A stretch of 64,000 bases of DNA from Planoprotostelium fungivorum (taxonomy: Eukaryota > Evosea > Variosea > Cavosteliida > Cavosteliaceae): positions 39,825 through 103,824 of the forward strand of contig MDYQ01000364.1 of assembly GCA_003024175.1 (NCBI GenBank), read 5' to 3'. Both the position numbers and the translations under genes were made by a program. Every line of letters starts with the position of its first letter. Position 1 is the first letter of the stretch. Shown here piece by piece: positions 1-55,455 of the stretch. Under the pieces are notes generated by a model. That model was not told where the DNA came from, ran no database searches, and was given only the letters and a program-made list of their open reading frames with translations.

Positions 1-1876
1 TAGACAGTGAGTTTTCATCGACATTTCATCGTGTTCCACCTGTCCATCGACATCTCGACTGTGGTAGAATTCGAACGGGGGTAGCCATCCACACACTGTT
101 CTGCCGCTCCAAACAATAAGACCGTCGTCGACTTAGTTAGATTCTTTCCGGAGATCAAGATCGATCCCTCGCCCTGGTACAATTTCCAATCTGATGCAGT
201 CTCCACCTCCGTGTACACGTAGCCTACAATAACGTCAGCATCTGTTCATCACGCGATTTCGTCTCACTGATGTCCACCGGTTGATGGGTTGTAAAGTCGA
301 TTCTGCTTCGATCGTACAGTTGAATGGTGTTGACGGTCAATCCACCGATGGTCCACGTCACTCGGTTCTTCGTTTGGACGGCGATGACGTAAGCCGAGAC
401 TGCTCCACCACCGTTCAATTCAGATACAGTTAACGTATTTTCCTTCTGCATTCGATTCAGTTCGTACGTGGAAGAAGAGGAGACGAACGTCGACGGTAAG
501 TGTGGAGCCTTCAGAGATCGTCAGGGTAGAGAAGGTAGCCGAACCACTGAGGACGATGTCGTTGCTGTACCGAGTCAGACTCGACGTAGGATGATGTCTC
601 ACATGAAAGTGACCGATGGGTTGGACCCTGCATCGTTGGCGGGGAAAGTTGCGATCAAATTGGCCGGGCCGACAAAGACGTTATCTGTTCCGTATATTTT
701 AGAAACTGTGACGGTGCCAGACAACACGAGGCGACAGCCTTCCGCATAGAGACTCTCAGCTTGAGCATCGCGGAGGTTGAGGGTCTGGGAGAGGTCAGAG
801 TGGCTCGTTGTAGACGAGAGATTCTCCACCTGATTGGTAACGGACAAGGATGTTTCGGAAGAGGTTGTTCTCGAGTAGGTGATGTCCATGAAGTAGCTTT
901 CACCCTCGGCAGCTGCCGCGGCGACCAACTGGAACGGTTTAGACATGACATCATGATGCGTCTCTCACGGTGAGACCTCCTGTATACACGCCACCCTCGT
1001 CGGTGATCGTGCATCGTCTAAAGTCGAAATGGGAGACGAGTGCAGAGACGCCACCGCTGTAGAGGAAGGAGGCTCCCCTCGTGCATCCCAGACCCAAATC
1101 GGTGTTCAAATTTCCTGTGTGAAATGAGCGACACGGATGATATCACGCGACACTGACCCGAGAGTCTAATAGAACTAGATGTTCCACCGTTGACGATGCG
1201 ATGGTCTTCAGTGCCGATGAGATTGATGTAACCCTTGGTGAAGTAGAGGAGCCCATTGTTGATAATATCTGCATCAACTTGGAACTGGGCTGGGGTTCGA
1301 TCGGTGGAGTTTGCTGCGGAGAAGGTCAAAGTGGCTCCTAGGTGGTTCTCAAAGGTTCCGTTGACTCTGAACTGATATGATGCATCAGTCGACTGTCATT
1401 CGAGTGGCTCACAGTGGATCTGTGGCTGAGGGTACTCGTTCCATAGTTGTTGAATGTTCCAGTTGAGATCATTGTGCTCTGCTGCTGAAGGCGTCCATTC
1501 ACGGTGACATCATCGGATACGAAGATACTTGAACCAGAAGTGATCAAGACAGAGGTCGCGTCCACAGATAAGTTGCCCACTTTCAGTGTCGAAGAAGTGA
1601 TGCGTAGGTCACTGCTCTCGATCCGCAGGGCTTGCCACACGATGCTGTCTTCGGAGGACAGCTCTGCACTTGCCCCACGGAACAAGACTGTGTCGTTCCA
1701 TGTGGGGACGTGCGGCTTCCACACAGCGAGCTATAGAGGTCGGCGTCTGTGAGAATCATCTTTGTGATACCCACATCAGTCAGAGAGACCTGGTCTGCTG
1801 TTCCGACATAAGTGCAGACATCTGCAACGGCCAAAGCGAAGAGGAGGAAGAGGAGACACAGCCGTGCTTGCTGCAT
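1..1876 (-). CDS. Secreted beta-helix-like surface protein, C-terminus off the left edge (partial)
   Basis: The start codon at 1876 opens a clear signal peptide (MQQARLCLLFLLFALAVA). A 44-nt intron beginning GTGGGT and ending CTATAG joins it in phase to a segment starting LAVWKPHVPTWND. The following exons are rich in short Val/Ile/Thr/Ser strands with Asn and Gly turns (for example VTVNGRLQQQSTMISTGTFN, then VDADIINNGLLYFTKG), the pattern of right-handed parallel beta-helix or adhesin-like extracellular proteins. Toward the left edge a stretch resembles an IPT/TIG-like beta domain (GEGSILISGKNLTKSTTVLL). At least five exons are present and the 3' end lies outside the window. I do not recognise a named family. 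Secretion is well supported. Adhesion or cell-coat function is inference. Confidence 0.6.
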
Positions 1877-2162
1877 GCGGAATGTTTGACGAATGATCGC
1901 AACCGGAAGAGAATCGTTTGTCGGGTTAGCGAGATGTCAATACATGTTGACATCTTAATCTACAACTTGTACAGGGCACTGTTGCCGTGCAACAGCTTCG
2001 GCCGGTGAATCTATTATGTATAACACTAAACGACACATTCGACTCTGTGATCATCGTGTGCATCAGCAAACGACCTATATTTCTGATACAACACCCTCAT
2101 CTTCCACCATCATGATGATTCTAACGGTTCATTACATTTATTCCTCCAACTCTTCATCGTCG

Positions 2163-3206
2163 TCACAGGGCCATCGATATCTTATCCAGAAGCACTTGTG
2201 TGTCCACTGGTGACAGCTCCGGCTTGTTCTCTATCGCTTCTATGATATCTTCCACCGTGAACATCTTAAACTGTTCCAAGCTGCCGTCTTTTCTCTTCAA
2301 CTGGAGGAAAATAAATCAAAATAAATCCTCGCGGAGTCATCGACTCACATCTTCCCTCATGATGGTTGCAGACGGACTCGCTTCACTCAAAATCTGCGTC
2401 AAATACTTCTGCAGACGTGATTTAGAAGGTGATGATGATGAGTCATCTCACTCGAATGCACATGTCTAAATATTGGATGGCCTCGGGGTGAACGTGACAC
2501 AGCGAGGCCTGCGCGGCGATGAGATTTGTTCTGTGGGTGAGAGCCAAATGCTCGCAGATGGGCGTCGTGTTCACGATCTCCTCCATTGGTTCCGTGCTTT
2601 TCGTCGTTGTCGTTGTCTATACGATGGTGTCGGTGATGGAATGCAATGGATCATCGTGATCGATCACCTCGATCTTTTCTTCGGTTGGTTTTCGTGCGTC
2701 CTTTGTGCTCTTTCTCACGCTCTTCGTGGAGCTCTCTGAGGCAACACTGCGAGTTCATGATCAGTCGAATGATGAAAGAGGGATCGTCCTCACATCTGAT
2801 TATATGCTGTCGTGCCTCTTCGAATAGAGAGTGGACCGGAATACGGTGATTGGATATTGTTTATGATGGCTTTGACAAATAAATTATGAAGGGCGACTGT
2901 TCTTCTGATCAATCGCACGGAATCGATTGATCGACCCACTGTTCTCTGACGTCTTCAGTAATGAGAGGGCCGTTGAATCCATTTCAGGTTTTGTCAATTT
3001 GGCTTGGGCGAATCGTTTGAAACAACTCCAATAAAGTTGAACGCCATCCTCTCTCCCTGAGCTCTTTTCGAGGACGATGTTGAGTTTATTTCGAATGAGC
3101 TGTGCGAATGGTAAATCGGTAGGAGATGTAGGGATGAAAGGATAGGATGAATGGAAGATCGAACCTGAAGGTTGATCCGACCGTCATTGGAGGGTAACAC
3201 GTCCAT
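2163..3206 (-). CDS. SAGA complex subunit Ada1/TADA1-like protein
   Basis: The start at 3206 gives MDVLPSNDGRINLQ, followed by an intron and a segment with the conserved Ada1/Hfi1/TADA1 pattern: a basic helix (AQLIRNKLNIVL), YW-containing core (GVQLYWSCFKRFAQAKLTK), then the typical RRTVALHNLFVKAIINNI block. TADA1 proteins carry an equivalent 'YW...L.KLSK.EFD...LHN.F..AI' region. The C-terminus (FTVEDIIEAIENKPELSPVD) is helical and ends at a TGA at 2163. In the SAGA histone acetyltransferase complex Ada1 holds a histone-fold with TAF12 and is a core scaffold, acting in the nucleus. The gene is divergent from MSH4 with about 355 bp between starts. At least four short introns are needed. The family call rests on motif recognition without an alignment. 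Confidence 0.62.
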
Positions 3207-3561
3207 TTCTAACGGCTATCGTGATGTGATGTGATCTCAAAAATGAAATAAAATATTCCGCTCACAACGATCGCTCTTGGGATGAGTTCGACAGAAGAAG
3301 CTAAGAAGAGCTTCCCTTATTCTGTTCTAATCCATCTCTGATTCCATCTATTGACTGACGAACATAAACTCTACACAATCAGATCATCTTGCATATTCTT
3401 AATAATATTGCACTTTCTTCCTTCTATGAATCGCACAAACTGAATACGTTCTGCCAATGTGATGTATCTTCATCGATAAAAGATCTTCGCCTGCCGTCTT
3501 TTGTTGGGGTCTCAAATGATTGGGCTTCTTCGAAATCTGAACAGAAGACACACGAACCACC
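3207..3561. promoter_or_regulatory. Shared intergenic region between divergent Ada1-like and MSH4 genes
   Basis: Both neighbours start outward from this 355-bp stretch. It is A/T-richer than the flanks and contains no convincing coding segment. No defined promoter element could be assigned. Confidence 0.35.
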
Positions 3562-19481: not shown

Positions 19482-20556
19482 TCATCTCTGATTGTGGAAT
19501 GGGTGGCCTGAAGTTGTTGGTTGCCACTTGAAATGCGATGTGGAACTCGGACCACTGTTTGGGAAACGGATACTCATTCGTGAGTACCTCGTACAGGACA
19601 AGACGACCATTTTCTCGTTGTATTCCAATCCCGTGATCACTGAACCAGATGAGAACGGGCGTGAAAGGAAAGTAGCCTCACCTTCGGGTGCCATGAAGCG
19701 TGGTGTTCCCATGGTTCTCATGGTGGTATCTGTGGATGTCTCCTTGACCTAAAAGATGATTCAGGTGTCCCTCCTTCTAAATCGTTCGACACCCACCCTG
19801 GATAGACCAAAGTCGCTGATTTTGCCTTCTTCAGTGTGTCCATCAGGATGTTGGCGCTCTTGACGTCTCTGTGGATGATGCCCTGATACCCGAGAACGTT
19901 GTAACCGTGAAGATAAGCCAGTCCCTTTGCGATAGACCTCATCCATGTGACGATATCGTATAGCGTCTGGTAATCGTGTCTCTTCTCGTGCAGCACTTTG
20001 TGCAGACTGCCGTTCCTACATAGGGGAAAAGCGAGGTACAGTCCATCCTCTTCCGTCGTGACGACCCCCATCAACCGGATGATGTTCTCGTGATGCAGCG
20101 TGGACAGCAGCTCTGCCTCTACCTTGATCTCTTCGATCGCATTGGCCATCGAGATCGACAGTGCATCCTGCGGATCTTCTTGATTGCCACCCTCGTTCGA
20201 TGCAGCCTGCCAAAGAATCAGTACCGTCTGCTGCCGGGCTGAAATACCCAGGTCGATGTTGAGATCGGACAACTTCTCCAGTGTGACCAGTGACACTTCT
20301 GCCCTCTCTCTACCCTGAGAGCCGCTGCTGCCGCCCGCCGCAGACGAGCCTTTCATTTCCTTCTCTGTGGCCTGTAGCTCGGAGAGGATATTATCGAACG
20401 AAGGTCTCTGCTCTGGATCTTGATCCCAGCACCTCTGTACCAGTCGGACGAAGCGAGCAGGAAGGCCCTCGACTGAGGGAAGATGGGACGGATATTGTTG
20501 TGGACGACCGCGCGAGCCAATGTACCTTGTTGAGCGTACTCTGAGTAAGGAGTCTT
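19482..20556 (-). pseudogene. Decayed tandem protein-kinase relic
   Basis: Read on the minus strand, the first part is the end of a kinase C-lobe (TLARAVVHNNIRPIFPQS) that shifts frame by one base into LPARFVRLVQRCWDQDPEQR. It is followed directly by the start of a second kinase: VAIKKI lies in one frame while AELLSTLHHENIIRLMGVV lies in another. IIHRDVKSANILMD, ISDFGLSRVG and GTPRFMAPE remain. The second C-lobe (EVLTNEYPFPKQWSEFHI, then NNFRPPIPQSEM) breaks off near 19490. Both ends are missing and at least two frame breaks cannot be explained by short introns, so a pseudogene is the best call. It lies tail-to-tail against the RasGEF, 105 bp away. Confidence 0.6.
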
Positions 20557-25358: not shown

Positions 25359-25452
25359 GACAGCATGGCCGAGTGGTTAAGGCGGTAGACTCGAATCTAA
25401 AAATAGCAATCTACTATCTTCGGATGCGTGAGTTCAAATCTCACTGCTGTCG
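25359..25452 (+). tRNA. tRNA-Ser(CGA) with a 13-nt intron
   Basis: The acceptor stem is seven perfect pairs (GACAGCA/TGCTGTC), discriminator G at 25452. The D arm reads GCCGAGTGGTTAAGGC. The anticodon stem GTAGA/TCTAC encloses loop CTCGAA, with anticodon CGA at 25392-25394, an intron TCTAAAAATAGCA (25396-25408) at the canonical 37/38 position, then A38. A long variable arm TATCTTCGGATG marks a class II tRNA, followed by the T arm GTGAG-TTCAAAT-CTCAC. A run of six T at about 25455-25460 is the RNA polymerase III terminator. Anticodon and long variable arm agree on serine. Confidence 0.95.
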
Positions 25453-36053: not shown

Positions 36054-38551
36054 TCAAGCCCTCTTCCTCCTCTTCGGCGACGTCCTCCTTACCAGCTTGA
36101 CAGGAACAGCGACACGTCCCGTGAAGGACTTCCTCTTTCTCTTCTTGTTCTTCGTCCTCTTTAGAGGTTGACTCGTCGGTGATGGAGGTGGAGGGGAGGA
36201 CGGTGCTGATGATTGTGGCGATGGACTTCGGTTCTTCTTCACGGGTGTCTTTCCGGCATTCTTCCGTGGTGAGTCATCGTCGATGATCTCTTCTTCCTCT
36301 TGTTCTTCCTCTTGTTCTTCTATCTCTTCCTCTCCACTCGATTCCTCCTTCAGTATCTCTTCCTCCTCTTCTTCTTCCTTCTCTTCTTCTTCCTTCTCTT
36401 CTTCTTCCTTCTCTTCTTCACTCTCTTCCTCCTCACTGTCCGCTGACTCTGTGGATTCTTCCTTCTCTACCTCCACGTCATCATCTGTGATCTCCTCTTC
36501 TATCTCTTCCCTCTCTTCGATCTCCTTCTCTTCTTCTCCCTCTTCTTCCTTCTCTTCTATCTCTTCCTTCTCTTCTTCCTGCTCTTCTTCTTCCTTCTCT
36601 TCTTCTTCCTTCTCTTCTTCCTTCTCCTGCATCTCATCAGACTGCATCTCATCACACGATGTCACGTCACCTCTTCGCTCGATTGTCCCCCCCTCCCCTT
36701 CTCTCGTGCTCTTCCTGCCGATCGATCCACGCTCACATTCTTCTTCTCTCCCTTCTTCTCCCTCTTCCTCCCCTTCGTCGGTGGATTCTTCACGAGTTTT
36801 CCGGGAGATTTCTTCCCCTTTCCCTCTTCTAACATCCTCCTCCTCTCTCTCAGGAGCACCTCCGTCTCGATCCATTTGATTCTCTCCTTCTTGATGGACT
36901 CTCTCTTCTTGCAGAGGTCGAGCAGTGTCCTCAGACGATCTAGATCTTGTCTGAGACGGAAGCATCTCACGCGGTACTCTCTATCGGTCAGGCCGTTTCG
37001 GAGATTGAGGCGGTTTTTCTCGTCCGGTCGCTGGATTTAGGGTTTAGCGAACGGAAGAACGGGTAAACGGAAGAACGGATGAATCACCTGAAGGAAGACG
37101 CGTAAGAGGGAGGTCCTGTGCCTCGATCTCTTCCACCTCCAGAAGAGGTACGTCTTCGATAAGAGGGTCTTTGATTCCTGTGTTTTCCTCTCGTCAAACG
37201 CAAAGTAATTGGGACTGTACAGCTGGATGACGCTGTGGAGGTGGGTCTGTTGCTGCTCGTCCAGGCAGGTGAAGCCGAAGCTGTCTTCCTTCTTGACTTC
37301 CCTGGCCTGAAGGGTCAGTTTTGGCGGGAGATTTTGGCGGGAAAGGAGATTGGGACTCACTATGGTGTGCTTCCTGCAGTACTGAGAGAACTTCTCGTTC
37401 GATTCCACGTCGATCTTGAAGCCCTCGTGACGGCCACATGTGATGTGAAAGTGCTGATTGCACTTGCTCTCTTTGCATCGCACGGAGAGACCACTCTTAT
37501 GGTCGCAGACCATGCACGTGTGGCGGGCGACCTTGGATGAGATGGAAGATGGAGTCGATATGCCATCCATCGAATCGGTATCTTCGATGATGATCTGCGG
37601 GGTCCAGAGTGCGCAGCAGAGGTGGACCCACGTCCCCTCTTCTTCCGTTTCTTTGAGAGCACCTTGAGCAGATGGACACAGAGCACAAGTCTGTGCGAAT
37701 GTGTGAGGATCGATTGAGAGTGTCGAGAGAAGGAGGCCTCACGATTTGACTCTTGTTTGGGCTCAGACATCGGTCACATTTCCAATGTTCCTCTTCATCT
37801 TCGACGCCATAACAAGCTCGGTGGACGTGGACATGACAAGTCTCGCAGAAGAGGAGAGGGTTCTCTTCTTCGTTTGAGTTGCCGTGACAGACATTGCAAT
37901 TGGTGTCTCCGTCATCTGAGAATCCAAAGAGGATATGGGGCTCTTTCATGAACCTCTGTCGCTATGTAAATAGAAGTCTTGAGAGGCTTCGACTCACAGC
38001 TGAGTTGAACTCGATCTCAAAGATCTCGATTAGAACTTCAAAAAAGTCTACGGACAGTTTCTGATGGGCGTTGTTACCATGTTTCTGGTTCACAGCAGCG
38101 ATGAATTCTTCGTCTTCTTCGTCTGCATCATATTCCGCCTTCTTCTTGTCCTCTCCATTGATCTCTGTTGAAAGGGTCAGAGGTTTTCACCATCGTCAAA
38201 ATACCTTTATGGACGTAGTAGTCAGATGGGGGCTTGAACCTCTTTCCAGGTGAAGCAGCTGTCGTCCTCGCAAGAACTCGAACGCCAGGAATGGGTACAA
38301 CTATAGAACCACTCTCTTTAATGACCCCTGTGGACAGTTCCTCTTCGGCATCAGAAGTATCATGCTGTTTTGTGTCAGCGGACTCGATCGAAATGCATTG
38401 GATCGTCCACCTTCTTTCGTTTCTTTTTCTGAGGGGTGACATCCCCAAAGAGGCCCGAGTGCTCCTCCATCTCTTTGATTCGGGCTGCATCTGTGACGAT
38501 TTCGAGTTTCGTATTCACATCGATGGCTCTAGAGCGGAGTAGTGTCGTCAT
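36054..38551 (-). CDS. BRPF/JADE-type chromatin reader: EPL1 region, PHD finger, zinc knuckle, extended PHD
   Basis: The start at 38551 gives MTTLLRSRAIDVNTKLEIV, like the N-terminus of Enhancer-of-polycomb proteins. An EPL1-like segment follows (EYDADEEDEEFIAAVNQK). The PHD finger is CNVCHGNSNEEENPLLFCET through HWKCDRCLSPNK. The extended PHD includes TWVHLCCALWTPQ, CMVCDHKSGLSVRCKES and QHFHITCGRHEGFKIDVE. A helix (TYLFWRWKRSRHRTSLLR) and RCFRLRQDLDRLRTLLDLCK match the BRPF post-PHD region. A 44-nt intron then joins an extreme Glu-rich tract (over 130 residues) and a basic nuclear tail. These proteins scaffold MYST acetyltransferase complexes on histone H3. An intron near 37031 ends in a telomere-like motif. 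No bromodomain or PWWP was found, which favours a JADE-like architecture. Confidence 0.9.
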
Positions 38552-44960: not shown

Positions 44961-45931
44961 TTATTCTCCCTTTCTAGCGAGTGGGTGAGGCATGAGAGCG
45001 AAGCAGAGCTCATCGATGTCAAACTTCTTTCTCAATCCATGACTGGTCGAGAATTCATATTTCGACGTCTGTATACTGTGATATGCCTTCAACTTCTGTG
45101 TGATGGTGAGTCATAACCGATCGTGAGATCTCATCTCACCGACTCCTTCTCCTCTGGAGTGCACAAACGTTTCGTCAAGAAGAGAGTGTCCCAACACAGT
45201 AGTGGCCACTCTGTGTGGTCACTCTCATCCTGCATCGATCAGTTCAGAACACAGATCACATGATGTCGTGTGCCATCACGATCGGTGATGGTCTTAGACT
45301 TACTGTAGGATGACTGTAGAATGCTGGACGTGTCGTGCGGAAGTAGATGATGAACAGGTGGACCATGAACTGACATCCTGGTTTCGGATTTCTCCCTGAT
45401 TCTTCTGGACACATCTTGCATCTAAAAGAATTCGATTCAGAGAGACAAGTCTCGTGTTATATGACTCACACCATCTGGATGATACTCGACATATCTGTAT
45501 GGTGTCATCTTCGTCGTCATCTGTGTAGAGGATGGCTCACCCAATGTATCTTGAGGGAATGTATCACTGTTCAGGGACTCGATAGTCTGTATAATGTCAT
45601 CGACTTCGGTAGTGAACTCATGAGCCAGGTTGCACTGGGATGTCAAGGTGCAGACTGCGTATTCATGTTGTGAATTCAACATGGATTTGATCGTGATGAA
45701 CCTCTTCAAAAAGCTCTTGACGATGCCCAATCTCGTTTGTTTTTCTTCTCCTCTGATTGGCGATTGAGACAAGTACATCACACGAGATGTTCACTCTGAA
45801 AAATCCAGCTCTTCTCCCTCTTCATCTAGGTCGATGCAGAAGATCTGGATGATCATTAGGAATGATTGGGTGAGGAACGTTCTCACTATCTTCTCCTTGT
45901 TGATGGCTGGTCCAAAAGATAGATCAGTCAT
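44961..45931 (-). CDS. BABAM1/MERIT40-like protein (BRISC and BRCA1-A complex)
   Basis: The start at 45931 gives MTDLSFGPAINKEKI, spliced over a 42-nt intron to IFCIDLDEEGEELDFSEGEE, the beginning of a vWA-like fold. Next come TRLGIVKSFLKRFITIKSML, EYAVCTLTSQCNLAHEFTTE and VDDIIQTIESL, characteristic of MERIT40. Later exons give MVHLFIIYFRTTRPAFYSHP, and the C-terminus reads KFDIDELCFALMPHPLARKG, equivalent to the 'LLAHPLQR' ending of human BABAM1. MERIT40 bridges subunits of the K63-specific deubiquitinase complexes BRISC and BRCA1-A. The stop TAA is at 44961. Presence of this gene implies a BRCC36-type complex in this organism. Confidence 0.85.
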
Positions 45932-46029
45932 CGTCCGCGGCAGTGTTGTGTGTCCTGATGAAAAATTGGAACATCTTCCACCACTACAACCATCACATCA
46001 CCCATTGCATATCACATCACACACCCACC
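45932..46029. promoter_or_regulatory. 98-bp bidirectional promoter between BABAM1-like and NSRP1-like genes
   Basis: Two divergent start codons are only 98 bp apart. The gap contains CATCACATCACCC and CATATCACATCACACACCC, nearly repeated elements, and no TATA box. Confidence 0.45.
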
Positions 46030-47309
46030 ATGCCTATCCAATTGACCGGCGTCGCCGGAAAGCAATACGGTCTTATCAAACCTCCCGTTAAGCCCAAGTT
46101 AACTATGGACGACGACGAAGATGACACACCAAAGAAGAAGCCCATGTCCCAGATTGCACACATCTATAACATGGAAGCACAAGCACATGGAGCTCGTAAG
46201 TTGAAGGAGGCACAAGAGCAGCAGGCCGCCATTTTAGCGGAGGACCCAAATGCATTCAGCTACGATGATGTCTATGATGATATCAAAGAGAAGAGAGAGA
46301 TTCTGAAGGGAGAGAAGGCATCGAAACAGAAGAACATGGCGCCCAAGTACAGAGAGTCCATTTTAGCTCGAGCGAAAGAGAGGGAGAGAGAACAGGTTCG
46401 TATTTCTTCAGGTCTTTATGTTCCGATTCCATCCACATCTTTGTCTAACATCTCCGTCAGGAAATCATTTACGATAGAAAAGTGAGGAAGGAGACAGAAG
46501 CAGAGGGAGACACGTATGGAGATAAGGAAAAGTTCGTCACCGCTGCTTATAAGAGGAAGTTGATCGAAGACAAACAATGGGAGGAGAAGGAGGCCAAGAG
46601 GCTTGCATTAGAAGAAGATCCGACTCGAAAGAAGGATCTGAGTGGTTTCTATAACAGCTTTTATTCCGCAGCCATCGGCGCTCAGAAGGTTGCAGAGAAA
46701 CAACAGGTGTGTATCATGATGATGCAACATCTCACCCCGTCTGATGAACAAATAGGAGGAAGCGAAAGCAGAAGAGAAGGCGGATAAAGAGAAGGAAATG
46801 CGAAGAAACGGTGAGACATCACGATGCACCATTCATCACTGACACCTGCGACAGAAGAGAGGGAGAGAGAGAACAAGAGAAGAGAAGAGGATCGACACAG
46901 AGACAGAAGAGATGACGACCGACACAGAGACAGAAGAGATGACGACCGACACAGATCGTCAAGAGATGATGATCGAAGAAGAGACGACGACCGAAGGAGA
47001 GAGAGAGAGACAGATAGAAGCAGAGACAGATCGAGGGAGAGCGACAGGAGAAGAGATGAGCCCAGACATGATGCAAGAAGAGGCGATCAGACAAAAAGGA
47101 CGGAAGAGAAGAGGGAAGAGAAGAGAGAAGAGAAGAAGGAAGAGAAGAAGGAAGAGAGAGAAGAGAAGAAAGAAGAGAAGAAGGAGGAGAAAGAAGAGAA
47201 GAAGGAGGAAGTACCTGTGCTGTCACGGAGGAATAATGAGGAAGCCGTGGAGGCAGCAAAGAGGAGAGCAGCAGAGAGAAGAGCGGCAGCAAAAGCAGCA
47301 CAGGGATAA
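46030..47309 (+). CDS. Nuclear speckle splicing regulatory protein 1-like (NSRP1/CCDC55, DUF2040)
   Basis: The N-terminus MPIQLTGVAGKQYGLIKPP is the conserved 'YGL' start of NSRP1. The DUF2040 coiled-coil follows: LAEDPNAFSYDDVYDDIKEK, APKYRESILARAKEREREQE, IIYDRKVRKETEAEGDTYGD, KEKFVTAAYKRKLIEDKQW, and KKDLSGFYNSFY. The C-terminal half is an RD/RS-like Arg-Asp-rich domain (HRDRRDDDRHRDRRDDDRHR), then Glu/Lys runs. NSRP1 regulates alternative splice-site choice in nuclear speckles, which fits a genome with this many introns. Three introns were placed. The gene ends 147 bp before the convergent RhoGAP-like gene. Confidence 0.93.
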
Positions 47310-52242: not shown

Positions 52243-53674
52243 TCAATCACAATGTAGATCGGGTGATGGTCTTCTCACGCGTGTCACCTCACTATTGTCT
52301 TCAGGTGTGAGGATGCGAGTAGCGATGTTGATGAACAGTTCGAATAGATTCTCCCCCGTGGTCGATGAACACACATCGTAAAACCCTTGCAGGCCGAGTT
52401 CAGAGCCGTATACTTCCATCTGTCGTGCATCATCAGATCACGTTGATGACATGATGATCCGATCTAGGTGAGGAAAGAATCATGATGAATAAAATAACAA
52501 TGAATTGAATACGAATGTCACAATACAGAGTTGAATACACGTGACAACGACTCACGTCTTCGTTTGAGATGACACCGTTTGGAGCGATATAATCTCCCGT
52601 CTCGAAATCATCTCCTAACAACACTTCAATTCAATCAAACGAAAGTGACTCACTCTGGTCCAATTTACAACCCACTAGAAAGATGGGAGCATCCACGTAT
52701 CCAGCACACCTGATGAGAGGTATCCACTTTGTTCCCACACTGACGAAAGAAGTAGGATCTACCAGACTGCAACACCATCAGCTGTCATCATCTCACCATC
52801 GTCATCGTCCATCGATCATCCAATCCGATCGATCGATCGCGCGATCATGTGATCTTCACCTGAAGCAGATGACGAAGGCATCGACACCCAGAGATGGCAT
52901 GAAACCGATGGGAAAACAAGCCGGGTTACCCGGTACGTCGCATAATCTGGTCATGACTGTCCTTCCCTTGCAGACCAAGTGTTTGTCATAGAAGCCTGGC
53001 TCTTCGTCCGGTATATAAGATCCACCGTGGTACGGAATGTGACTGACGCCGTCAGCGCGATCGGCGATGATGGAAGGTGATCATGGCGATCACCTGATGC
53101 TCTGGGTGATCAGTTGGGTCTTACCCACGTTGCGATCGCCCATGACGCAGATGTTCATCTCGATCTTGTCGCGTGCGGTCGTCGTCCACATCGATAGAGG
53201 ATCAGATGTGAGGGTGATGGAACGTGTGGGTCACCTGTTGGAGTCTCTTCTTCCTCGATTGTTCTTCTCGAAGAGGACCGAGGACGAATTTGTTGATGAA
53301 GTGTCGTTTCGTTTGAGTTTCACCTTGGAATGCATTGACGGTTCCCAATCGATCGAATCTGATTGGTTCGTCATGAGATGTTCTCTGTATTAGAGTGTCT
53401 GAGAGTAATGTGTTTACCGTTCTGTGAAAGTTTTTGCCTTTTCCCTCCACAACTGATCATCTTCAGCTGATATGTGATTCAGTTTTGATAAGACAAGCGA
53501 GGATGTTGACATACCGATCTGTTGAAACTTTCTCGCTACAGTACAGATCCTGCATAACGTGCGGACATCTATGATTCGTTAGCAACACATTTCGGCATTC
53601 AGCGAGCCTCACTCACTTAGGATAGAAAATATTTCTTTCAAGATCTCATCTGGAAGATCTAAAATGGATGTCAT
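52243..53674 (-). CDS. F-box / Rho-like small GTPase fusion protein
   Basis: The start at 53674 reads MTSILDLPDEILKEIFSIL, then NVRTLCRICTVARKFQQI and AEDDQLWREKAKTFTER after introns: a complete F-box with its 'LP.E.L..I...L' and 'D..LW' ends. The next exons give a G domain: P-loop CVMGDRNVGKTQLITQSI, then YHGGSYIPDEEPGFYDKHLV, TRLCDVPGNPACF, the Rho-type VDAFVICF followed by VDPTSFVSVGTKWIPLI, G4-like APIFLVGCKLDQ and G5-like FYDVCSSTTGENLFELFINI. The switch-I threonine (YVPTVF in Rho) is Asp and the DTAGQ motif is DVPGN, so nucleotide cycling may be altered. It ends RRPSPDLHCD without a CAAX box. It lies upstream of the RhoGAP-like gene on the same strand, 178 bp apart. Confidence 0.85.
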
Positions 53675-53781
53675 CGTCCGATTCTGTGCGACACGATTCC
53701 GCTCATACGAAGACAGACAATCAACATCTACAACCCTCGTCATCTTCAACTTTTATCGTCTATATCCTCTCATCAAGCGAT

Positions 53782-55455
53782 TCAACTAAAAAACTCCCTC
53801 GTTCGTGCCTCAATATTTACCTGATGAAACGTTTCAACATCGATCATCTCATCATCATCTCACATCGTATCTCCTCCTGCGCACTCGCCGTCCATTTCGA
53901 TCTCAGCGTCCTCACCCTCCACAAGACAACGTCCACCCACTTCTGCACGTAGTTGTGGTAGTAGTACCACTTCCAACTGTAAGCCACTCTCACGTTAGGA
54001 TTGACGTAGATTCGACTCTGATGATATAGACTCTCAAGGTCCCTGCACATGTAATAGCACTCTGATCGAGGGCAATTGTCGTTGGCAGAATGACGGAATC
54101 GCAGTCCATTCAAGATGGGTTCTGCGTTGAAGACTGCCGCGCCGTTCCAGCAGGACTTGACGAGGAAAGGTGTGCCACTGTTTCGTGATGAATAGAAGAT
54201 GATGATCGTGATGGTGAACAAGGGGCTGATGATGGGTGATGCACAGACGATGGTGGTGATAAATGAGTTGATGAACAACGGATCAGAGACGATGACGATG
54301 AGTGAGTCGAATGAGGATGAACACGATGATGTACTGGATGATGATGAAATAAAGGTCATCGGTGATGTTCACCTGTGGAATAACTCTTGTGATGCTTCGT
54401 GTCGTACGTAAGGGTAAAAATCATCGAAATCCTCTCCCACAACATCGCGGGTGACCCATCGATCGTAAAATGCAAAGAAGAAATCTAAACCGCAGACGAA
54501 ATCAAATTCTCCTGTAAGCGTGTGAAGAGGAGACACTCGAGAATCTCGATCACCTCCACGCGTCTGGATGAGCTGCATGATGTCTTCTGCTTGGAAGTAG
54601 ATGTCGTTAAGAAAGATGATCTTCATCTCGCCCGGCTGTTGTCTCCAAATGAAACTGTTGTTCCCTGTGGATTCGTTGATATTCAGGCAAGCGTGTGAAG
54701 ACATGGGATCACATCACCTCCCATGGATTGGTTGAAGAGAGGTTCTAAGACTCGGTTTCGTATCGCAGCCAGATGTTCTATTCGATCCATACCTGGAGCC
54801 CTTCCCGTCCCTTTGGCAGTGACAATGTGGTGGGGTATGTCTAACCGATCTGCCAGACGACGAAAGTCATCTAGAAAGAGTGGAGTTTTGTCTCGGCTGA
54901 AGAATTCTGAGTGATGTTCAAAATGTGGAAGAGAGATCACCTGTCATTCTCATAGATGGAGAGGAAGATCCTTTCGGTACCGACGATGGTGACGAATCTC
55001 TCCCATTGGATCATAAAATGAGGCAACACCGCTTCATTGTTGTAGAAGTTGATGGCGATAAAATAGCGGATCTGATTGTTCTGAGAGAAAGAAGAATCCC
55101 TCTCGGTTGTATCAACCCTCGAAGCAAAAAGCAGATAGAAGATGGTCAAGATGGCTAAGGATATGATCGACTTTCGCCTGTCGATTCTACCTCTATTTCC
55201 TGATCAAAGATAGGAAGATATGACATACAAACCTCATGAGCCACGTTGAGTTTGTACATCTACCAATGAATGATGTAACGATGTTGGGTCTGAGAACACT
55301 GCAATTCTTCAAATTTCTTTCTAATTTTAAACCATTTCGTTTTGTGGGATCGAACACGACGCAGGAATCGTCTCTGACTGCTGTTCTTCTCTGCGATGCG
55401 GTGAACGTAGTACTTTACTCATCTCTTCAGAATCACTCACATCTTTGATTGGCAT
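53782..55455 (-). CDS. GT69 (CAP59/CMT1-like) alpha-mannosyltransferase, type II membrane protein
   Basis: A short cytoplasmic exon (MPIKDVSDSEEMSKVLRS; an in-frame ATG at 55476 is an alternative) is spliced to NRGRIDRRKSIISLAILTIF, a signal anchor. The lumenal domain matches GT69: IRYFIAINFYNNEAVLPHF, IFLSIYENDR, FLDDFRRLADRLDIPHHIVT, MDRIEHLAAIRNRVLEPL, then KIIFLNDIYFQAEDIMQLI with its DXX metal site, FDFVCGLDFFFAFYDRWVTR, PFLVKSCWNGAAVFNAEPIL, CPRSECYYMCRDLESL and YVNPNVRVAYSWKWYYY. Fungal members build capsule and cell-wall mannans in the Golgi. A cyst or cell-coat glycan role is likely here by analogy. It is divergent from the LRR receptor kinase. Confidence 0.88.

Follow-up and report, generated by a model that had tools for sequence, protein, structure and literature searches.

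To our knowledge, RhoBTB is the case in which a Rho domain forms part of a cullin-ligase adaptor. In RhoBTB proteins the Rho domain is followed by two BTB domains, the first of which binds Cul3 in RhoBTB2 (PMC1257465), and both RhoBTB1/2 and RacA of Dictyostelium lack a CAAX motif (PMC8305917). The gene considered here lies in a 64,000-nt stretch of the Planoprotostelium fungivorum genome (the window). Its predicted product would resemble RhoBTB and RacA in combining an atypical Rho domain with a cullin-ligase adaptor domain in the absence of a CAAX motif. It would differ from RhoBTB in carrying a single F-box before the G domain, with Skp1-CUL1 as the predicted partner, where RhoBTB has its two BTB domains behind the Rho domain and binds Cul3; no BTB match was found by Pfam in the assembled window protein. 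A RhoBTB may exist elsewhere in this genome; at two loci with two neighbouring BTB matches each (C84 and C76), a Rho domain was not detected in 3-kb stretches that cover some 2 kb of sequence upstream of these matches.

Multidomain proteins in which ARF-family GTPases are fused to F-box or BTB are described in PMC8358228, so the general kind of fusion is known. These ARF-F-box proteins, as presented there, share with the genes described below the pairing of a small GTPase with an F-box, but their GTPase belongs to the ARF family, whereas that of the window gene is Rho-derived and those of two further genes of the same genome are Ras-derived. The original prediction had taken the arrangement to be one not known as described. 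This holds for a Rho domain within the literature searched, no Rho-F-box protein having been found among the openly licensed articles listed, but it does not extend to small GTPases at large in view of the ARF-family fusions. The term ‘F-box’ does not occur in the main text of PMC3188802, and a paper on Naegleria fowleri (PMC8296547) cites reviews of F-box and BTB within its references on small GTPases, with a supplement that may list F-box-Ras fusions. The GTPase-F-box fusion is a kind of protein already known, of which the Rho and Ras versions are, as far as could be seen, new.

The source genome is intron-rich (36.86 Mb in 471 contigs), and we joined exons in silico by GT-AG borders and frame, with later refinement of the third intron. 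The resulting model runs on the minus strand from 53674 to 52243 and has nine exons (Table 1), not the six first proposed, encoding a 295-residue protein without internal stop, or one of 293 residues if the alternative acceptor before the P-loop exon is used. Exon 1 might instead start at an in-frame ATG farther upstream, at 53743, and an in-frame stop forces the acceptor of exon 9 to lie next to 52420, as judged by eye. The F-box exons stand directly 5′ of a complete Rho-like G domain on the same strand, as had been claimed.

Table 1. Exons of the window gene (window positions, in silico splicing) and the two other F-box-GTPase genes of the genome.
Feature	Location	Strand	Content
Exon 1	53617..53674	-	F-box start, MTSILDLPDEILKEIFSIL
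Exon 2	53515..53568	-	F-box middle
Exon 3	53418..53466	-	F-box end, EDDQLWREKAKTFTE
Exon 4	53235..53358	-	Linker, FDRLGTVNAFQGETQTKRHFINKFVLGPLREEQSRKKRLQQ; absent from the junction originally proposed
Exon 5	53094..53164	-	P-loop, IEMNICVMGDRNVGKTQLITQSI; start at 53164, or at 53158 by the higher-scoring path
Exon 6	52860..53042	-	Degenerate switch I SYIPDEEPGFY and switch II CDVPGN
Exon 7	52654..52766	-	LVDPTSFVSVGTKWIP and G4 motif VGCKLD
Exon 8	52556..52614	-	Rho-insert region
Exon 9	52243..52419	-	G5 DVCSSTTGENLF; C-terminus ...DLHCD; donor 9.8, acceptor 6.3
C134 F-box-Ras gene	L001 (C134:130500-135500), about 1518-2856	+	F-box, then nearly canonical Ras
C66 F-box-Ras gene	L002 (C66:189000-194500), about 3797-2088	-	F-box, then degenerate Ras-like domain

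Both domains of the one assembled protein score above the Pfam gathering thresholds. The F-box-like family PF12937 matches residues 4-46 (E 1.3e-12, 47.7 bits against a cut-off of 24.3) and PF00646 scores 37 bits against 20.5, while Ras matches residues 100-274 (E 2.4e-12). Together with the RhoU match given below, these Pfam scores are the independent sign that the domains are no chance resemblance; the spliced scans of the DNA carry less weight. In those scans the F-box reached 136, compared with a best score of 73 in 140 reversed-sequence scans, with a 33-row profile that includes the window's own F-box; the G domain reached 114 against 109 in the reversed-sequence null, barely above it.

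The Rho ancestry of the G domain is seen from several sides. Among solved structures, RhoU gives the best match (E 4.8e-17) and Rac1 the next, and when the G domain alone was compared with solved structures, the 60 matches listed, of 98, were all Rho, Rac, Cdc42 or plant Rac-like proteins. The 12 best matches of a spliced search over the fetched loci were of Rho type. A tree built from 33 of this genome's G domains places the window sequence inside a 14-row Rho clade with support 99/100, on the longest branch of the tree (3.86 changes per column), a length at which rows are placed unsurely; its highest identity to any other row is 30%. Apart from its own exons, no close copy of the G domain was found genome-wide, the next match having an E of 3.3e-4, and a search outside the genome gave 5 pattern matches in viral_contigs, none of them a relative.

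The sequence motifs first described are all present: the P-loop reads GDRNVGKT, DTAGQ is replaced by DVPGN, Asp occupies the position of the switch-I Thr, and the stretch LVDPTSF..V..KW is there. The C-terminus likewise bears out the absence of a CAAX box. Aligned with Rac1, the domain has Gly12 replaced by Arg, Ala13 by Asn, Thr35 by Asp and Gln61 by Asn, and it keeps the P-loop Lys and Thr, Asp57 and Gly60, together with the G4 K..D (CKLD) and the G5 Ser (CSS). The region of a putative Rho insert between G4 and G5 is of nearly full length in the same alignment and dissimilar to Rac1 in sequence. RhoU and Rac1, the best structural matches, differ from the window protein in retaining the switch-I Thr and DTAG(Q) and in having no F-box. 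With Asp and DVPGN in place of the functional Rho switch residues Thr35 and DTAGQ, the domain would be at most an atypical Rho. From the residues kept and changed, nucleotide binding appears possible and efficient hydrolysis unlikely, with the GTP-sensing switch I altered. The description ‘nucleotide-locked’ is one option only: the P-loop Lys and Thr, Asp57, Gly60 and the G4 and G5 residues are retained, but Thr35 and Gln61 are lost and position 12 is Arg, so that the domain could bind a nucleotide and not cycle it, or be largely insensitive to nucleotide.

Whether the two domains form one protein turns on the splicing between exon 3 and the P-loop. Splice sites were scored with a matrix from 19 GTPase loci of the same genome, for which 72 introns were collected from homology-guided models and the 64 of 38-110 nt kept; the matrix was trained on those same 64 introns, so its scores are relative, and some of the odder references may be alignment artefacts. 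In six introns of the model (1/2, 2/3, 5/6, 6/7, 7/8 and 8/9) the donor ranks among the best 9% of the window's GT sites, and the acceptors score 1.8 to 7.0; the acceptors of 5/6, 6/7 and 7/8 are low in the reference range, with 3, 4 and 3, respectively, of the 64 references at or below them. Between exon 3 and the P-loop we enumerated paths that need either a single GT-AG intron or two, each intron being 25-350 nt long, and none of the 84 in-phase paths gets by with one. The direct junction of TFTER to CVMGDRN proposed at the outset therefore cannot be right in that form and was dropped; a linker exon (exon 4) is required. In the best-scoring paths intron 3/4 is a 59-nt intron (53417-53359) with a donor of 6.4 and a strong acceptor of 8.4, and replaces an earlier model of 35 nt with an acceptor of -1.2. 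The donor of the linker exon, at 53234, is good (7.3). In-phase paths onward into the G domain exist, but the acceptor of intron 4/5 scores -3.3 (intron end 53165) or -0.7 (53159), in both cases below all 64 reference acceptors, the lowest of which scores 1.2. A branch-point-like CTGAT is found at 53202, which is 37 nt ahead of 53165, and no AG intervenes; in the reference introns such a motif lies 9-13 nt from the acceptor in 48 of 64 and at 20 nt or more in one. The stretch before 53191 offers an acceptor-like context that lacks an AG, and 1.4% of window positions score higher, including others in that stretch. Codon usage was uninformative here, the exons ranging from -0.16 to +0.31 per codon; a longer first version of the linker exon scored -0.11 (its other frame -0.16), and the three frames of intron 4 scored -0.29 to -0.50. 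On balance, with the strongest support being indirect and coming from the C134 and C66 genes described below, we consider it probable that the F-box and the Rho-like domain are made as one protein.

The weakness of the exon 4/5 acceptors lets an alternative survive in which two tandem genes encode a short F-box-only protein and a stand-alone degenerate Rho protein. The former would end at the stop at 53204-53202 that exon 4 meets when read unspliced (...RLQQVTHTFHHPHI), or at 53233-53231 (...RGRRDSNR) if the third intron were one of 33 nt, whose fair acceptor (4.5) leads into that stop; the latter would start at the ATG at 53191 (MWTTTARDKIEMNICVMGD...) or at that at 53158, both in frame with the G domain, whose reading frame is open back to 53230. 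Degenerate Rho-like GTPases beside which no F-box was detected do occur in this genome (C359 and C152, see below). Two tandem genes would, however, leave only 10 or 43 nt between stop and start (39 or 72 nt with the 33-nt intron), compared with apparent gaps, estimated by eye, of about 100-169 nt to the CAP59-like gene upstream, 178 nt to the reading frame downstream and 165 nt behind the C66 gene. Also against two genes, the donor at 53234 is good, and the F-box-GTPase genes at C134 and C66 are firmly joined. We regard two separate genes as unlikely, though not negligibly so, and retain a single fused gene as the preferred reading.

The two other genes emerged when F-box matches were paired by eye with the listed Ras matches, of 180, giving three candidates. 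In the C134 gene, the Ras domain carries GAGGVGKS, YDPTIEDAY, DTAGPEEY and NKCD, ends in a CAAX box (CTLM), and keeps the other core motifs as judged by eye. Its joining intron (1837-1954) is in phase with a donor of 9.5 and an acceptor of 8.9, at a locus outside the training set, and Pfam gives E 1.1e-11 for F-box-like and 2.4e-49 for Ras, with a protein that omits 8 residues present in the best splice path. The C66 gene has GSTCSGKT, NTSGVEEY and GNHLE and a CAAX box CIIS; a long insert precedes switch II, and both G3 and G4 are degenerate. Its three joining introns are in phase, with donor/acceptor scores of 8.4/7.6, 10.2/6.3 and 9.6/7.2, and one of its 7 in-phase models, used as Pfam input, gave E 6.2e-11 for F-box-like and 1.1e-25 for Ras. 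In both genes each domain exceeds the Pfam cut-offs. The presence of these two better-supported F-box-Ras genes in the same genome makes the F-box-GTPase design look real. They share with the window gene the order F-box, linker, G domain and the loss of the catalytic Gln, which is replaced by Asn in the window protein, Pro in C134 and Val in C66 (aligned by eye); they differ in that their G domains fall into a 5-row Ras clade (support 100/99), while that of the window falls into the Rho clade, and in possessing CAAX boxes. Provided that the window gene is indeed fused, the two clades imply that F-box and GTPase were joined at least twice. A locus at C316 was rejected as a fusion: its Ras ends with ...CNIL*, and the F-box gene downstream is separate.

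F-boxes are found at 108 places in the genome, or at 152 with a laxer limit. In addition to the loci L001-L003, 40 F-box stretches were scanned (L036-L075, of which three span less than 2.2 kb), and in none of these 40 was a fused GTPase found; at L058 and L066 Rabs lie near an F-box as separate genes. The scan gives the top chain on each strand, and the G domain of the window gene itself barely exceeds the null, so a degenerate GTPase could be missed by it. Conversely, 41 stretches around GTPases (L016-L035 with short flanks, L076-L088 and L089-L096; 39 loci, L087 and L088 being second readings of L030 and L035) contained no F-box above the null, the nearest being L086 at 72 against 73. Further F-box-GTPase fusions may be present in the genome. 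This survey also brought up two Rho-like GTPases with no F-box detected nearby. A degenerate Rho-like GTPase with a CDVPG motif as in the window protein lies on the plus strand of L088 (C359:23200-28000) at 2896-3448, with no F-box above the null in 4.8 kb, and a divergent one with an altered switch region on the plus strand of L087 (C152:4200-8500) at 2693-3266, with no F-box above the null in 4.3 kb.

What such a fused protein might do is suggested by its parts. We propose that the window gene product acts as an SCF substrate adaptor with the Rho fold as its recognition module, a reading to which we would assign a probability of roughly 0.55. It would be one soluble protein of ~295 residues, in which an N-terminal F-box is followed by a basic linker, ~40 residues long, and by a G domain that derives from Rho and evolves fast. 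The F-box would dock on Skp1-Cul1; hydrolysis would be disabled through the loss of Gln61, Gly12 and Thr35; and the Rho-fold surface would capture a protein of the Rho pathway, perhaps an effector, GEF, GAP or GDI, for ubiquitination. A Skp1 gene is present in the genome (C268, E 1.5e-23), as are cullin genes on several contigs, among which Cul1 was not distinguished from other cullins. The idea of an SCF counterpart of RhoBTB, as first put forward, gains from the strong junctions of the C134 and C66 genes, the grouping of the G domain with Rho and the Skp1 and cullin genes, and loses in that the junction first stated was wrong and the corrected one is weak. Tentatively, and with the balance of our expectation against it, one may go further and imagine in this protist a small class of SCF ligases targeted by small GTPases, arisen independently at least twice (once from Rho and at least once from Ras), each without the catalytic Gln. 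A CAAX box would anchor the Ras-type members to membranes, and the partner-binding surfaces of Rho or Ras would choose the targets for ubiquitination at the membrane or in the cytosol. If this SCF version and the two Ras versions are true, small-GTPase folds have been wired repeatedly into ubiquitin ligases by evolution, and the F-box-GTPase genes would supply natural constructs with which to ask if substrate selection by a GTPase fold is possible in the absence of nucleotide cycling.

The main functional competitor of the adaptor reading is that the SCF complex ubiquitinates the fused GTPase itself, whose level would then be set by turnover and not by the GTPase cycle. The catalytic Gln is lost in all three fused G domains, so that control by hydrolysis would be poor, and the C134 and C66 proteins with their CAAX boxes could otherwise stay active on membranes. 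The window protein has no CAAX box, however, and F-box proteins generally recruit substrates other than themselves, and we hold this scenario to be rather improbable. Still less probable is a once-working F-box-Rho fusion now in decay, a reading that would account for the branch length, the missing switch residues and the poor acceptors but sits poorly with nine exons free of stops and frameshifts, with the retained residues of the P-loop (Lys and Thr), Asp57, Gly60, G4 (K..D) and G5 (Ser), and with the high-ranking donors (top 9%) of the other introns. A substrate adaptor with a Rho-derived recognition module remains the reading we prefer.

A few other features were observed in the window. 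Directly upstream of the F-box exons lies a minus-strand gene (53847-54713), two frames of which match CAP59_mtransfer (PF11735, Cryptococcal mannosyltransferase 1). Pfam also recognises pieces of a protein kinase (19721-20554, minus strand), a PHD-like zinc finger (37040-37738, minus strand) and an NSRP1-like splicing regulator (45904-46482, plus strand). A 94-nt tRNA, probably intron-containing, is found by Rfam at 25359-25452 on the plus strand and is not reported by ARAGORN.
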